From: Chloroflexota bacterium
GTDB taxonomy: Bacteria; Chloroflexota; Limnocylindria; QHBO01
Assembly (NCBI GenBank): GCA_040902225.1
Contig: JBBDXT010000004.1
Span: 240,060-304,059 of the forward strand
Reading direction: 5' to 3'
Length of the DNA: 64,000 nt
The position numbers and the translations under genes were made by a program. Under the pieces are notes generated by a model. It did no database searches. It had not been told where the DNA came from and saw nothing but the letters and a program-made list of their open reading frames with translations. Shown piece by piece: positions 55,604 to 62,181 of this stretch; the first letter of the stretch is position 1; each line of letters opens with the position of its first letter.

Positions 55604-56592
55604 GCCCGCGAGCGCGGGCGACCGCCACCAAGGCGCCCGCGAAGCCGGGCGCCTCGGTCCTGCGGGCCAAGACTGCAGCGCCGCTCGCCATCCGCGATGG
55701 GGCAGGGTCCGCCGGCCAGCGACTCGAGGTGCGCAAGACCTACAAGCTGTACATCGGCGGTGCCTTCCCGCGCACCGAATCGGGCCGCGCCTACGAGATC
55801 CACGGTGCGAAGGGCGAGCTCCTCGCCAACGCCTGTCGCGGGACGCGCAAGGACATCCGAGACGCGGTTCGCGCCGCACGCACGGCGCTGCCCGACTGGT
55901 CGGCCAAAACTGGCTTCAACCGCAGCCAGATCCTGTATCGCATCGCTGAGCTGATGGAGGGTCGCCGCGACCAGTTCGTCAGTGAGGTGATGGCCGCCGA
56001 GGGAGTTGGGCGGCAACGCGCTACCCGCCTCACCGATGCCGCGATCGATCGCTGGGTCTGGTACGCCGGCTGGGCCGACAAGTTCAGCCAGGTGAACGGG
56101 TCGGTCAACCCGGTCAACGGCAGCTACTTCAACTTCAGCGTACCCGAGCCGAGCGGCGTAGTCGGGGTGATCGCGCCCGAGGGGTCGAGCCTGCTCGGGC
56201 TGGTGAGCCGCCTGGCTCCGGTCATCGTCTCCGGCAACTGTGCGGTGGTTCTGGCCTCCGAGTCACGCCCGCTTCCGGCGGTGACGCTCACCGAGGTCTT
56301 CGCCACGTCAGACGTGCCAGGTGGCGTGGTCAACCTGATCACCGGGCTGCGTAGGGAGCTGGTGCTGCACCTGGCGGGACACATGGACGTCAACGCTCTT
56401 GATGCGTACGGACTCGACCCGGCGCAGGGGGTTGCCGTGGAGGAGCTGGCCACGGAGAACGTGAAGCGCCTCGTGCGGCCGCCAACGAACGGATCGAACG
56501 CGGTCGATTGGCTCAGCCCGCGCGCCCAGTCGCCCTACCTGATCGGGGAGTTCACCGAGACGAAGACCGTCTGGCACCCGATCGGCAGCTAG
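55600..56592 (+). CDS. Truncated aldehyde dehydrogenase-like protein, catalytically dead
   Basis: A 330-residue protein with only the first part of an ALDH. Residues about 45-250 match the cofactor-binding half (KTYKLYIGGAFPRTESGRAYEIHG, GVVGVIAPEGSSLLGLVSRLAPVIVSGNCAVVLAS, DVPGGVVNLITG). The region with the general-base Glu and nucleophile Cys is absent, and the C-terminus ends in an unusual NVKRLVRPPTNGSNAVDWLSP tail. The truncation is probably old, because the tail is in frame with a normal stop. The neighbouring full ALDH suggests a non-catalytic partner, as in the two-domain ALDH16 family. Confidence 0.83.
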   Translation: MSPRARATATKAPAKPGASVLRAKTAAPLAIRDGAGSAGQRLEVRKTYKLYIGGAFPRTESGRAYEIHGAKGELLANACRGTRKDIRDAVRAARTALPDWSAKTGFNRSQILYRIAELMEGRRDQFVSEVMAAEGVGRQRATRLTDAAIDRWVWYAGWADKFSQVNGSVNPVNGSYFNFSVPEPSGVVGVIAPEGSSLLGLVSRLAPVIVSGNCAVVLASESRPLPAVTLTEVFATSDVPGGVVNLITGLRRELVLHLAGHMDVNALDAYGLDPAQGVAVEELATENVKRLVRPPTNGSNAVDWLSPRAQSPYLIGEFTETKTVWHPIGS

Positions 56593-57905
56593 CCCAATCT
56601 CAGCCAGCTGGCCAGCGTCGAGCCGAACAGGACGGCGGTGAGCAGGATCACCAGCCCGGTCAGGCCCCAGGCCAGCACGTTCAGCCACCTCGGGTTGGTG
56701 TGCTGGCCCATGATCCGCGGGTTGTTCACCAGCCGCAGCATGAAGACCAGGATGATCGGGAGCAGGATCCCGTTGAGGTTCTGGCTGACCAGGATGACGC
56801 CGATCAGCGGCAGTCCCGGAATGAGAACGACCACCGCGCCGATCACGATCAGGGCGGTGTAGAGCCCCATGAACGCGGGCGCCTCGCTGAACTTGCGGGA
56901 GACGCCCGACTCCCAGCCGAACGACTCGCACACGGCGTAGCTTGTCGTGAGGGGCATGACCGTCGCCGCCAGCACCGATGCCCCGAACAGCCCGAAGGCA
57001 AAGAGTGCCTTGGCGAAATCGCCGGCAACCGGGGCCAGGGCGAGCGCCGCCTGGTCCGCGCTCTCGATGGTGATGCCCCGCGGAAAGATGGTCACGGCCG
57101 TCACGATCACGATGAAGAGGGCGATGGCATTGGTCCAGATGCCGCCCAGCACGGCGTCCGCCCGCTCGAAGGTGAGCTCCTCGGGGCCTAGCCCCTTGTC
57201 CGCGACCGATGACTGCAGGTAGAAGAACATGTACGGCGTGACGGTGGTGCCGACCGCTGCGACCATCAGCAGCAGCGCGTTCGGCGCCAGCGAGACCGAT
57301 GGCGAGATGAGTGCCCGCCCCACCTCGCCCCAGTCGGGACCCGCCACGAAGGCGCTCACCACGTAGGCGCCGAAGACGACCGCCACGGACAGGAAGACGC
57401 GCTCCACGACGCGGTAGCTGGCGAAGACGACCAGCGCCCAGATTCCCGCCGCCACGATCGGCACCGTGGCGTAGCGGGAGATCCCAAAGATCTCCAGCGC
57501 AGCGGCTGCTCCAGCGAACTCGGCCACGATGTTCGCGCCGTTGGCGATCAGCAGCACAACCATCGCGAAGAGGGTCCAGCGGATCCCGAAATCGTCGCGG
57601 ATCAGGTCGCCGAGGCCCTGCCCGGAGACGGCGCCCATGCGCGCCGCCATCTCGAGAACGACCACCAGCAGGATGGTCGTGATCGGGAAGATCCAGAGCA
57701 GCGAGAGGCCCGTCTCCGCCCCGAGGACGCTGTAGGTGGCGATCCCACCCGCGTCGTTGCCGGCCAGACCGGCAACCAATCCGGGTCCCATCACGCCGAG
57801 GAAGGCCAGCACCCCGGACCGATGGACGCGGAAGTTCGGCAGGCGCTCGCGGAGGGAGCGCTGTGCGCGCCGCATGGGGCGGGGGAGTGCCAGGCGCCGG
57901 GTCAC
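56589..57905 (-). CDS. NRAMP-like metal transporter (atypical motifs)
   Basis: A 438-residue NRAMP-fold transporter with about 11 helices. The TM1 metal motif DPGN reads D-A-G-G (LAGNDAGGIATYS) and the TM6 MPH motif reads T-P-Y (VGTTVTPYMFFYL). Loss of the TM6 Met, which normally selects for Mn2+/Fe2+, is a mark of NRAMP-related magnesium transporters. The GTG at 57905 is five bases after the upstream stop; ATGs at 57959 and 57875 are alternatives. It is downstream of the MgtE-N/CBS gene, which fits a magnesium role. Its end faces the ALDH-like gene with overlapping stops. Confidence 0.85.
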   Translation of the reverse strand: MTRRLALPRPMRRAQRSLRERLPNFRVHRSGVLAFLGVMGPGLVAGLAGNDAGGIATYSVLGAETGLSLLWIFPITTILLVVVLEMAARMGAVSGQGLGDLIRDDFGIRWTLFAMVVLLIANGANIVAEFAGAAAALEIFGISRYATVPIVAAGIWALVVFASYRVVERVFLSVAVVFGAYVVSAFVAGPDWGEVGRALISPSVSLAPNALLLMVAAVGTTVTPYMFFYLQSSVADKGLGPEELTFERADAVLGGIWTNAIALFIVIVTAVTIFPRGITIESADQAALALAPVAGDFAKALFAFGLFGASVLAATVMPLTTSYAVCESFGWESGVSRKFSEAPAFMGLYTALIVIGAVVVLIPGLPLIGVILVSQNLNGILLPIILVFMLRLVNNPRIMGQHTNPRWLNVLAWGLTGLVILLTAVLFGSTLASWLRLG

Positions 57906-57910
57906 GTCGC

Positions 57911-59179
57911 CTACCGATCCTCGGCCGGCTCGTAGATCTCCGGGAGGCGCTTGCGCCAACCCTCGCCCAGCGCGCGCTCGAGGGCGTCGTCGACGGTCAC
58001 GATCCCCTGCATGCGGCCCTCTCCGTCGACCACCGGCAGCGCCAGCAGGTTATAGCGCGCGATAGCGGCTCCCACCTCTTCCGCATCGAGGTCGACGCCC
58101 ACGCTGATCGGTTCGGGCCGCATGAACTCGCGCACCGCCGTCTCCGGCGCCGCGACGATCAAGCCACGCAGCGTGATGGTGCCGACCAGCATCCCCTCGG
58201 CATCGGTCACGTACAGGTAATAGACGTGGTCGGCATCCGGATGCAGCTCACGCAGCCGCTCGATGACCTGCTCGGCGGTCATCTCGGGCGTAACGGTGAT
58301 GAAGTCGGTGGTCATCAGGCCGCCGGCGGTCTCCTCGCCGTAGGCGAGCAGCTCGCGGACATCGGATGCCTCCTCCGGCTCCATCAGGCCGAGCAGCTGC
58401 TCCTGGCGCTCTTCCGAGAGGTCGGCGACCAGGTCGGCGGCCTCGTCCGGCCCCATCTCCTCCAGGATGTCGGCTGCCTTCTCCGGGGGGAGCGCCTCGA
58501 GCAGGTCGACCTGGTCGTCCGCTGCCAGCTCCTCGAGGACGTCGGCGGCTCGTTCGTCGTCCAGCGCGGCGAGGATCCCGGCCCGATCGCGCGGCGCCAG
58601 CTGCTCGACGATGTGGGCCACGTCCGCCGGGTGAAGCGTGCCGAGCGCCTCGTGTGGAACGCGCAGCTTCAGGCTCGAGACGCTCGATTCCACCGGGTCG
58701 ACGTCCTCCCACTCGATGTAGTTCTCCGGCTCGAGGTGCAGCGCCCGCGCCAGCCGCTCGCCAGGGCCGGAGAGCCCGAGCCGACGGAGGATGCCCGCCA
58801 GCCCCACGTCAACCGCCACCAGGCGCAGCCGCGCCTCGACCGGTGCGAGCTGGATGTCATTGACGCGAACGATCTTGCGATCCTCGACGTCGACGATCTG
58901 CTTGTCGAGCAGGTCGAGCCAGAGGCGAATCTCATTCGGGCGCTGGCGAAAGCTGGCCATGTCGATGCGCGTGGTGCGCAGGCGCGCCCCTTCGGCGTCG
59001 ATCTCCTCGACATCGGTCCAGGGCAGAAAGATGTCGCGACCGCCGGTGACCCGAACCACCAGCCCCGTGACCGGCGGGTACTGTTCGCCGAGAGCCACGA
59101 TCAGATCGCGCAGCTTGCCGAGGGACTCGCCGTTCCGGTCGCGAACCGGACGGCCGACCAGCCGGCTGAGGAAGAGCAT
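57911..59179 (-). CDS. PRC-barrel, MgtE N-domain and CBS protein
   Basis: A 422-residue soluble protein. Order: a PRC-barrel domain at the start (VGRPVRDRNGESLGKLRDLI, 8-75), a second small barrel (about 90-160), an MgtE-type helical repeat domain (about 180-290) with many acidic L-x-P-x-x-A-A-D/E repeats, and two CBS domains (about 300-415). The membrane channel of MgtE is absent. In MgtE these two soluble domains sense Mg2+ and gate the pore. Here they are probably the sensor for the NRAMP-like transporter encoded next. The start has a GAGGTGG ribosome site. Confidence 0.88.
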   Translation of the reverse strand: MLFLSRLVGRPVRDRNGESLGKLRDLIVALGEQYPPVTGLVVRVTGGRDIFLPWTDVEEIDAEGARLRTTRIDMASFRQRPNEIRLWLDLLDKQIVDVEDRKIVRVNDIQLAPVEARLRLVAVDVGLAGILRRLGLSGPGERLARALHLEPENYIEWEDVDPVESSVSSLKLRVPHEALGTLHPADVAHIVEQLAPRDRAGILAALDDERAADVLEELAADDQVDLLEALPPEKAADILEEMGPDEAADLVADLSEERQEQLLGLMEPEEASDVRELLAYGEETAGGLMTTDFITVTPEMTAEQVIERLRELHPDADHVYYLYVTDAEGMLVGTITLRGLIVAAPETAVREFMRPEPISVGVDLDAEEVGAAIARYNLLALPVVDGEGRMQGIVTVDDALERALGEGWRKRLPEIYEPAEDR

Positions 59180-59419: not shown

Positions 59420-60064
59420 TCAGGAAACGCTGGCCGGTGTTTCATTGAGCTGATCCCGAGCGCGAGCACGATGTCGCGCAACCTTTGCCTGGTTACCGCA
59501 CGTGCGCATGTCACACCACCGTCGCCTCCCGGTTCGGGAGCGATCGATGAAAAGGTACCGGCAGCCGGCGTTGGCGCAGACCCGCAGGCGCGACGGCGCG
59601 TCATCGGCCAGGAACTGGGCAAGTGAGCTGGCGATGGTGGCGCGCGCCTGGTCGAGCCGGTCGCCGACCTGGGCGAAGGTGTAGCGAGTGCCATCCGGAT
59701 CGCGCTCGACCTGGTGGTAATGGAGCCCGTGGCGAAGGATGTGGTTGAGGTCGCGCAGCTGCTCGCTCGTCGGGTGGCCGGTCTCGGTCACCTGCGCGGC
59801 GATGAGGTGCAGGACCTCGCGCAGATGGTGGAACCGCTCGATTCGCCGCGCGGTCTCCTCGGGGTCGCGCCGAAGATGCGCGGCTTCGACGGCCATCCCC
59901 CGGCCGCTGATGAGGCGGCGCTCTCGCAGCCACGTCAGCAGCGAGCTCATGTCGGGCACGGCGTCGACGGGCTCGCCCCGCTCGTATTCGAGCGTGTTGC
60001 CGAAGGAAATGAAGAGCTCCTCGGCCTGGTCGGGCTCGTTGGGGGCAGTACCATCAAGTGCCAT
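59420..60064 (-). CDS. CGNR zinc-finger transcription regulator (ABATE domain)
   Basis: A 214-residue regulator. The N-terminal part (1-150) is an ABATE-type ligand-binding domain (FISFGNTLEYERGEPVDAV; LRDLNHILRHGL), and the C-terminal part is a CGNR zinc finger with Cys163, Cys168, Cys184 and Cys189 and the WCDMRTCGNQAKVARHRAR motif, a DNA-binding type. It starts at the ATG six bases after TACAAT on the minus strand, which lies inside a repeated operator, so it probably represses itself and the divergent peptide gene. Confidence 0.9.
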   Translation of the reverse strand: MALDGTAPNEPDQAEELFISFGNTLEYERGEPVDAVPDMSSLLTWLRERRLISGRGMAVEAAHLRRDPEETARRIERFHHLREVLHLIAAQVTETGHPTSEQLRDLNHILRHGLHYHQVERDPDGTRYTFAQVGDRLDQARATIASSLAQFLADDAPSRLRVCANAGCRYLFIDRSRTGRRRWCDMRTCGNQAKVARHRARARDQLNETPASVS

Positions 60065-60094
60065 GTAACCATTGTACAGCGCTTGACAAGTTAC
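60064..60094. promoter_or_regulatory. Operator copy 1 (TGTAACC-N17-AAGTTAC)
   Basis: TGTAACC (60064-60070), 17 bases, AAGTTAC (60088-60094), an inverted repeat of GTAAC. It covers the -10 box of the CGNR gene and the -35 box of the peptide gene. A second copy with the same arms and spacing lies 54 bases away. The CGNR protein is the likely ligand (inference). Confidence 0.7.
60071..60076 (-). promoter_or_regulatory. -10 box of CGNR gene, leaderless
   Basis: TACAAT on the minus strand (60076 to 60071), six bases before the ATG at 60064, inside operator copy 1. Confidence 0.6.
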
Positions 60095-60111
60095 CTCGAT
60101 CCGCGTACAGT
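60083..60111 (+). promoter_or_regulatory. Strong promoter of the 53-residue peptide gene
   Basis: TTGACA (60083-60088), a 17-base spacer and TACAGT (60106-60111), the best sigma-70-like promoter in the window. The transcript would begin near 60118, within operator copy 2, and run about 78 bases before the start codon. Confidence 0.8.
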
Positions 60112-60117
60112 AACCGC

Positions 60118-60148
60118 TGTAACCGTTCATACGGCATAAATAAGTTAC
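60118..60148. promoter_or_regulatory. Operator copy 2 (TGTAACC-N17-AAGTTAC)
   Basis: TGTAACC (60118-60124), 17 bases, AAGTTAC (60142-60148), identical in arms and spacing to copy 1. It covers the predicted transcript start of the peptide gene. A single extra GTAAC at 60110-60114 lies between the copies. Confidence 0.7.
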
Positions 60149-60195
60149 AGCAGATCTCGAGCACCACTCGCGATACCCAACCCAGGAGGTTTCAA

Positions 60196-60357
60196 ATGAG
60201 CCGAGGAACATATCTCGGACTGCTCGCAAATCTGCGACAGAATGAGATTCTCTACGAGGCACGCCGCCGCACGCACTCCACGGAGCCGATCCGCGAGCGC
60301 GACGGCCGCGGCCTTGGCGCCTCGTTGCTGCGCGTCCTGCGCATCACCAAGCGCTAA
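60196..60357 (+). CDS. Small basic peptide, 53 residues, unknown
   Basis: I do not recognise it. It reads MSRGTYLGLLANLRQN at the start and ends GLGASLLRVLRITKR, with many arginines and short amphipathic helices; no signal peptide or membrane helix is clear. It is accepted as real because AGGAGG (60184-60189) is six bases before the ATG, a near-consensus promoter lies upstream and a Rho-independent terminator follows 15 bases after the stop, so it is a complete single-gene unit. It diverges from the CGNR regulator, which may control it. Confidence 0.78.
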   Translation: MSRGTYLGLLANLRQNEILYEARRRTHSTEPIRERDGRGLGASLLRVLRITKR

Positions 60358-60371
60358 CCCGCCCCAAACAG

Positions 60372-60408
60372 AGCGGTCCAGCCCCTCGCCCGGGACTGGG
60401 CCGCTTTT
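60372..60408 (+). terminator. Rho-independent terminator of peptide gene
   Basis: AGCGGTCCAG (60372-60381) pairs with CTGGGCCGCT (60396-60405) through ten pairs including one G-U, with a 14-base loop and a TTTT run at 60405-60408. Confidence 0.85.
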
Positions 60409-60429: not shown

Positions 60430-62181
60430 ATGCCTCGGCCCCGCGCGATCTCACGCACTGACCCCACCCTCATCAGCAACGCGGACATGGCGCGGGTATT
60501 CAACGAGATCGCCGACATGCTGGAGATCTCGGGCGAGCTGGTCTACAAGGCGGTCGCGTATCGACGTGTCGCAGATGCGGTTGAGCGCTGGCCCGATGAC
60601 GTCGCTCATCTCTTCCAGGCCGATGATCCCCCCAAGATCCCAGGAGCCGGCCCGGCACTGAGCACCAAGCTGGCGGAGCTGGCAACCACCGGACAGCTGG
60701 CGTATTACGACCGCATGCGTGCCCAGGTTCCCAGCGGGCTGCTGGAGATCCTGAAGATCCCCGGGGTCGGGCCGCGAACCGTGAAGCAACTCCACGACGA
60801 GCTGGGGATCGATTCCGTCGAGGCGCTGCGGGCTGCCGCGGAGGCGGGGACGCTTCGCAGCCTGAAAGGGCTCTCGGCCCGGACCGAGGAGAACATCCTC
60901 GCCGCCATGGCCCGCCTGGCCTCGCGGGGTACCCGCCTGCTCCTGCACGACGCCGATGCGCTGATGTCCGGCCTGGTCGATCAGCTGCGGGAGGTCCGCG
61001 GCGTGCGCGCCATCGAGCCGGCGGGATCGCTGCGGCGCCGAAAGGCGACGATCGGGGATCTCGACTTGCTTGCTGCGACCGATGATCCCGCACGCCTGAT
61101 CCGTGCCCTCGACAGCCTGACGACCGTGGAACACGTGCTCAGCGCGGGCACGGACAAGTCGAGCATCGTGCTGGCCGAGGGGCCGCAGGTCGACCTGATG
61201 GTCTGTCCGCCGGCCGCCTGGGGCAGCCACCTGGTCCACTTCACCGGCAGCAAGGAGCACAACGTCGCCCTGCGTGGCATGGCGCTCGAGCGCGGCCTGT
61301 CGCTCTCCGAGAAGGGCTTCAAGGTCGTCGAGAGCGGTGAGCTGCAACCGATTGCCACCGAGGAAGAGGTCTACGAGCGGCTCGGCCTGCTGTTGATCCC
61401 GCCCGAGCTGCGCGAGGACAGCGGCGAGATCCAGGCCGCGCTGGCCGACCGCCTGCCCGACCTCGTCAACATGACCGATCTACGCGGCGACACCCACGTG
61501 CACTCGGACTGGACCGATGGGGTCGATTCGATCGAGGTGATGGCTCGCGCGGCGCGCGACCTCGGCCGCGCCTGGATCGTCCTGACCGATCACTCACCGT
61601 CGCTCGGCATCACGCGTGGCCTGACCGTCGAGCGAGTGACCGAGCAGCGCGAGGAGATCAGCCGGCTGAATGGCGAGCTTGCGCCGTTCCGTATCCTGCA
61701 CGGCACCGAGATGGAGATCCGTGCCGATGCGACCCTCGACTATCCCGATGACCTGCTGGCCCGGTTTGACGTCGTGGTGGCAAGCGTGCACACCGCCCGC
61801 GGGCAGTCGACCGAGCAGCTCACCCGTCGCACGCTGGCGGCGATCGACAACCCGAACGTCGACGTCATTGCACATCCCACCGGGCGAATCGTGAATCGCC
61901 GCGACCCGATCGCCCTCGATTGGCCGCGCGTCTTCGAGGCCGCGGCCCGCACCGGCACGGCGCTGGAGCTGAACGGCAGCCCCCGCCTTGATCTCGACGA
62001 CGCCCTGGCTCGCGCGGCCGGCCAGGCGGGCGTGCGACTCACCCTGGCCAGCGATGCGCATCGCACCGAGGAGCTCGACCAGCTCCGCTACGCGGTCTCG
62101 GTCGCGCGACGCGCGTGGCTGACGCCCGCGCAGGTGGTCGGTACCCGCACCGCCGACGAGCTGCTGGAGCTGGTGGGATGA
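60430..62181 (+). CDS. polX: DNA polymerase/3'-5' exonuclease PolX
   Basis: A 583-residue family-X polymerase with a PHP domain. The N-terminal part has two helix-hairpin-helix elements (FQADDPPKIPGAGPALSTK and LLEILKIPGVGPRTVKQL), the polymerase catalytic strand GDLDLLAA, and SKEHNVALRGMALERGLSLSE. The C-terminal PHP nuclease begins at RGDTHVHSDWTDG (about 352) and has LTDHSPSLGI, LHGTEMEI and the final SDAHR. It fills small gaps in base-excision repair. It starts at the ATG six bases after TAGAAT. Its stop overlaps the next start (ATGA). Confidence 0.95.
   Translation: MPRPRAISRTDPTLISNADMARVFNEIADMLEISGELVYKAVAYRRVADAVERWPDDVAHLFQADDPPKIPGAGPALSTKLAELATTGQLAYYDRMRAQVPSGLLEILKIPGVGPRTVKQLHDELGIDSVEALRAAAEAGTLRSLKGLSARTEENILAAMARLASRGTRLLLHDADALMSGLVDQLREVRGVRAIEPAGSLRRRKATIGDLDLLAATDDPARLIRALDSLTTVEHVLSAGTDKSSIVLAEGPQVDLMVCPPAAWGSHLVHFTGSKEHNVALRGMALERGLSLSEKGFKVVESGELQPIATEEEVYERLGLLLIPPELREDSGEIQAALADRLPDLVNMTDLRGDTHVHSDWTDGVDSIEVMARAARDLGRAWIVLTDHSPSLGITRGLTVERVTEQREEISRLNGELAPFRILHGTEMEIRADATLDYPDDLLARFDVVVASVHTARGQSTEQLTRRTLAAIDNPNVDVIAHPTGRIVNRRDPIALDWPRVFEAAARTGTALELNGSPRLDLDDALARAAGQAGVRLTLASDAHRTEELDQLRYAVSVARRAWLTPAQVVGTRTADELLELVG

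Follow-up and report, generated by a model that had tools for sequence, protein, structure and literature searches.

The CGNR regulator and the features of its locus

The window analysed, a stretch of 64,000 nt from a Chloroflexota genome, carries a gene for an ABATE/CGNR regulator and, divergent from it, a small gene for a basic peptide (Table 1). Both Pfam domains of the regulator scored above cut-off (zf-CGNR, E = 5e-19; ABATE, E = 5.5e-14) and lie in the order of the family, with ABATE followed by the CGNR zinc finger. A Foldseek search with the AlphaFold2 model returned 3h0n as its sole match (E = 2.4e-8, TM 0.60/0.68), and the zinc-binding cysteines at residues 163, 168, 184 and 189 are unchanged across 19 relatives. 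The protein shares both domains, the four cysteines and the fold with the Pfam PF07336 + PF11706 family and with Jann_2411 (PDB 3h0n, PMC2954205), although the motif that gave the family its name reads CGNQ in this genome. The known structure, probably a dimer, has a zinc finger proposed to bind DNA (PMC2954205). The earlier note had treated CGNR proteins as established DNA-binding regulators, which overstates the case: for 3h0n both DNA binding and a ligand of the ABATE domain were predicted, neither was tested and the target was not named (PMC2954205). Beyond that paper, searches of the open-access literature turned up no work on the DNA target of any CGNR protein. Whereas no target is named for Jann_2411, the present locus shows a specific output operon and a dyad that is duplicated and conserved.

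Table 1. Features of the CGNR locus. Positions are those of the window.
Feature	Position	Strand	Remarks
ABATE/CGNR regulator gene, 214 aa	59420..60064	-	ATG at 60064; Pfam, AlphaFold2 fold, zinc-site cysteines
Operator copy 1, GTAACC-N18-AGTTAC	60065..60094	.	14/14 relatives, one with a single mismatch
Predicted CGNR -10, TACAAT	60071..60076	-	6 nt before ATG; read from sequence
Peptide-gene promoter, TTGACA-17-TACAGT	60083..60111	+	-35 inside operator copy 1; TTGACA in 14/14
Extra unpaired GTAACC half-site	60110..60115	+	This genome only
Operator copy 2, over predicted transcript start of peptide gene	60119..60148	.	14/14, one with a single mismatch
Leader; position of the DSR membrane microprotein gene in G002	60149..60195	+	G000/G002 comparison, clean loss here
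Ribosome site, AGGAGG	60184..60189	+	Sequence; similarly strong site in relatives
Basic peptide gene, 53 residues, net charge +7	60196..60357	+	Kept in 14/14 relatives
Intrinsic terminator-like hairpin	about 60369..60408	+	-26.8 kcal/mol, z -4.6

TGTAACC-N17-AAGTTAC is found twice without a mismatch, at 60064-60094 and at 60118-60148, 54 nt apart from start to start. Copy 1 covers both the CGNR -10 and the peptide gene's TTGACA -35, whilst copy 2 begins at the predicted start of the peptide transcript, as the earlier note had proposed. The promoter, ribosome site and terminator-like hairpin of the peptide gene were likewise found as it described them. The hairpin was overlooked by a simple terminator scan because it ends in just four T; a similarly placed hairpin is strong in G005 (z -5.1) and weaker in G003 (z -1.8). 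With its predicted -10 sitting 6 nt from the ATG, and the start codon close behind this box in relatives too, the CGNR gene probably has a leaderless mRNA. The gene for a PolX-type DNA polymerase downstream (60430-62181) also looks leaderless, having TAGAAT a few bases before its ATG, and its place in the gene order is kept in several relatives. On the other side, an Nramp-type transporter gene and an MgtE_N/CBS/PRC-barrel gene (56589-59179) follow the CGNR gene on the same strand.

In this genome the exact dyad is confined to this region. No further copy of TGTAACC-N17-AAGTTAC is present in the window, where 100 dinucleotide shuffles gave an expectation of 0, and a scan of the whole genome (2.28 Mb, up to two mismatches) returned as forward matches just the two copies at the locus. 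When the 132-nt divergent region itself was shuffled 5000 times, an identical 5+5 dyad occurred twice at equal spacing in just 3 shuffles. A genome-wide regulon was ruled out, there being no further exact sites in this genome. Exact sites were also limited to the CGNR locus among the family genomes searched.

Conservation of the candidate operators and of the operon

The family sample comprised 21 relatives and this genome, with a close CGNR ortholog in 14; most of the genomes used in this work are metagenome assemblies. Both dyads are present in 14/14 of these loci, 49-54 bp apart, and a locus deviates by no more than a single mismatch in one of its copies. Their placement is kept as well: TTGACA lies inside copy 1 in every locus with a -10 some 17 nt further on, and copy 2 begins 2-7 nt past this -10 (5-7 nt in 13/14 loci). 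On the minus strand copy 1 holds a TATAAT-like box in most of the 14, and in all of them the CGNR start codon is close behind. The operators overlap both promoters, as in divergent repressors, throughout the 14 orthologous loci. The earlier note had staked its reading on the half-sites and the peptide being conserved beside orthologous CGNR genes; both are kept in 14/14, which strongly supports the autoregulated-switch architecture that it had read from the sequence.

A closer inspection of the 14 loci refined the operator. Information content is about 2 bits at half-site positions and mostly below 0.6 bits across the spacer of copy 2, while the spacer of copy 1 also holds the -35. The dyad proposed in the earlier note stood, but the outer T of its TGTAACC did not: at 0.3 bits in copy 1 it is unconserved. 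What is conserved is a 30-nt dyad, GTAACC-N18-AGTTAC, whose half-sites are 25 bp apart. When exact GTAAC/GTTAC pairs were sought at spacings of 8-44, the 25-bp spacing was found in 14/14 loci (26 sites) and any other spacing once. Other families of the class show the same preferred spacing. As a control, the dyad with one extra base between its half-sites was searched in 151 genomes, and no CGNR divergent region of the family was among the matches listed.

The peptide had been called an orphan. This is wrong: every one of the 14 relatives that have a CGNR ortholog has the peptide next to it. Compared with the closest relative, the sister species G002, its gene shows 9 synonymous and 2 nonsynonymous differences (omega 0.07); other pairs are looser, with omega of 0.34-0.67. 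Judged from these substitutions, the peptide is under selection. AlphaFold2 models it as a helix with moderate confidence (mean pLDDT 73).

The single small output that the earlier note supposed is a reduced state. In 11/14 relatives the operon has a second gene, placed after copy 2 and ahead of the peptide gene, which encodes a single-span membrane microprotein of 27-38 residues in which one hydrophobic span is followed by G-x-D-S/T (the G-x-D-S-R motif). This gene is missing from the locus in G005, G009 and the present genome, where no match to the microprotein was found anywhere; relative to G002, about 150 nt have been cleanly removed here. Searches of Pfam and NCBIfam matched neither the peptide nor the microprotein to a family.

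The site beside CGNR genes and microproteins elsewhere

The membrane microprotein is widespread in Chloroflexota, often with a related basic peptide; outside the phylum none was found in 14 named genomes, a search that had no positive control there. Its neighbour is either CGNR or, instead, a GntR, MocR, LysR or Lrp regulator. Where CGNR adjoins the microprotein, the dyad is present within one mismatch at 8/12 loci, and where it does not, at 0/18. In these comparisons the operator follows the CGNR gene rather than the output genes.

Several loci illustrate the range of arrangements. At L171 (G019, same family) the microprotein and basic peptide adjoin a MocR-type regulator (GntR + aminotransferase), a swap within the family, and at L170, L181, L183, L185, L247, L248 and L249 related microproteins adjoin GntR, LysR or Lrp regulators. 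At L229, L242 and L249 the microprotein precedes a PhzF or EamA gene. One family of the class (L091, L095, L097) has a microprotein with a C-terminal extension, FGYDSR...HHDRA..., about 67 residues long in total, and a separate peptide gene was not seen.

Among Chloroflexota CGNR loci outside the class, the dyad was present in 6/21 and not in the other 15/21. Two loci from another Chloroflexota family (L193, L197) have paired dyads in the CGNR divergent region with an EamA transporter gene about 0.3 kb beyond; at L197 the two are separated by a similar-looking basic peptide of 50 residues.

Outside Chloroflexota, an exact TAACC/GGTTA dyad at 22-23 bp was found in 30/48 CGNR loci, mostly from Burkholderia and so not independent, and at another spacing once. 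Further cases came from Labrys, Trinickia, Aquisalimonas, an acidobacterium and an actinobacterium. Moreover, when the half-sites were chosen before the scan, the site was found in 5 of 7 CGNR loci on proteobacterial plasmids (Pantoea, Cupriavidus, Shinella and Rhizobium twice), solely at 25-26 bp. It is duplicated in Burkholderia, Labrys, Pantoea and Cupriavidus, and a single copy in Rhizobiaceae, an acidobacterium and actinobacterium L023. Three actinobacterial loci (L252, L258, L259) have instead a duplicated GAACC-N9-GGTTC in their CGNR divergent regions, which is shorter than the GTAAC dyad by about one helical turn; this form was spotted after the fact and is weaker evidence. The site is missing from the CGNR loci of Gemmatimonadota and most actinobacteria examined, and a single code for all CGNR proteins was ruled out on these grounds. 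Genes near CGNR elsewhere encode EamA, AzlC, MFS and AEC transporters, alpha/beta hydrolases and oxidoreductases.

Regulatory model and its alternatives

We consider it probable that the locus is a local autoregulated repressor module, in which a CGNR dimer on the two dyads would control its own gene and the divergent microprotein operon until a signal sensed by the ABATE domain releases it. The dimer would recognise paired GTAAC half-sites at a spacing of 25 bp, and the dyad symmetry of the sites is consistent with the predicted CGNR dimer. Bound at copy 1, it would block the -10 and start codon of the CGNR gene together with the -35 of the divergent operon; at copy 2 it would occupy the transcript start of the operon. 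A copy spacing of 53-54 bp is about five helical turns, which would place both dyads on one face of the DNA and may permit cooperative binding. This placement fits repression, and is also compatible with activation by another mode. Release of the repressor by the sensed signal would turn the operon on. That transporters, hydrolases and oxidoreductases neighbour CGNR genes elsewhere suggests that ABATE domains sense small molecules. The output would be the basic helical peptide and, in most relatives, the single-span microprotein, probably working jointly at the membrane, as the pairing of a membrane span with a basic helix suggests.

The layout resembles the TetR/tetA type, in which a one-component repressor regulates itself and a divergent target through two operators placed over shared promoter elements. 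However, the TetR type has a helix-turn-helix regulator and a pump or enzyme as output, whereas here a zinc-finger regulator faces one or two microproteins. Elsewhere, though, CGNR genes do face transporter genes, of the EamA, MFS, AEC and AzlC types.

Co-occurrence of dyad and CGNR is not binding, and a different regulator might bind the dyads with the CGNR gene merely another of its targets. We regard this as very improbable, given that exact sites occur at the CGNR locus only in the family genomes searched, that in several phyla the site accompanies CGNR genes whose neighbours are unrelated, and that it is gone where the microprotein operon has another regulator. The peptide could also bind CGNR as an anti-repressor or co-repressor, forming a feedback loop that has no separate output; the module is compact, the peptide is predicted to be basic and helical, and within the family it is invariably beside CGNR. 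Yet the related peptide and microprotein pair adjoining the MocR-type regulator in L171 indicates that it is not tied to CGNR, and many site-bearing CGNR genes show no such peptide, making a pure feedback loop unlikely.

Small membrane and basic peptides are commonly toxins, tight double operators would suit tight silencing, and the partner gene has been lost from three genomes (this one, G005 and G009), all of which would fit a toxin-antitoxin-like unit whose peptide or membrane partner is silenced by CGNR or by the divergent layout. The CGNR and peptide genes are, however, divergent rather than in one operon as in two-protein toxin-antitoxin systems, the peptide is kept under selection where its partner is absent, and other site-bearing CGNR genes would control transporters, hydrolases and other enzymes. 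As the main reading, a mobile element or toxin unit was discarded: the module is family-wide rather than patchy, and stands beside the conserved PolX gene in several relatives. We therefore hold a toxin-like role for either microprotein to be quite unlikely.

Beyond the family, we suggest only tentatively, at somewhat short of even chances, that the GTAAC/GTTAC dyad, usually duplicated, is the recognition code of much of the CGNR/ABATE family across phyla, with spacing and half-site letters depending on lineage (GAACC-N9-GGTTC in some actinobacteria), and that its output in Chloroflexota is a two-microprotein membrane unit, not described before, which has changed regulator repeatedly (CGNR, GntR, MocR, LysR, Lrp).

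For the CGNR/ABATE family a structure has been solved and a role in DNA binding predicted, and the conserved candidate operator makes that prediction a simple binding experiment, which extends to the CGNR proteins of Burkholderia or Pantoea. Two unnamed microprotein families are now tied to a defined candidate switch, and the conditions that induce the operon should reveal their role.
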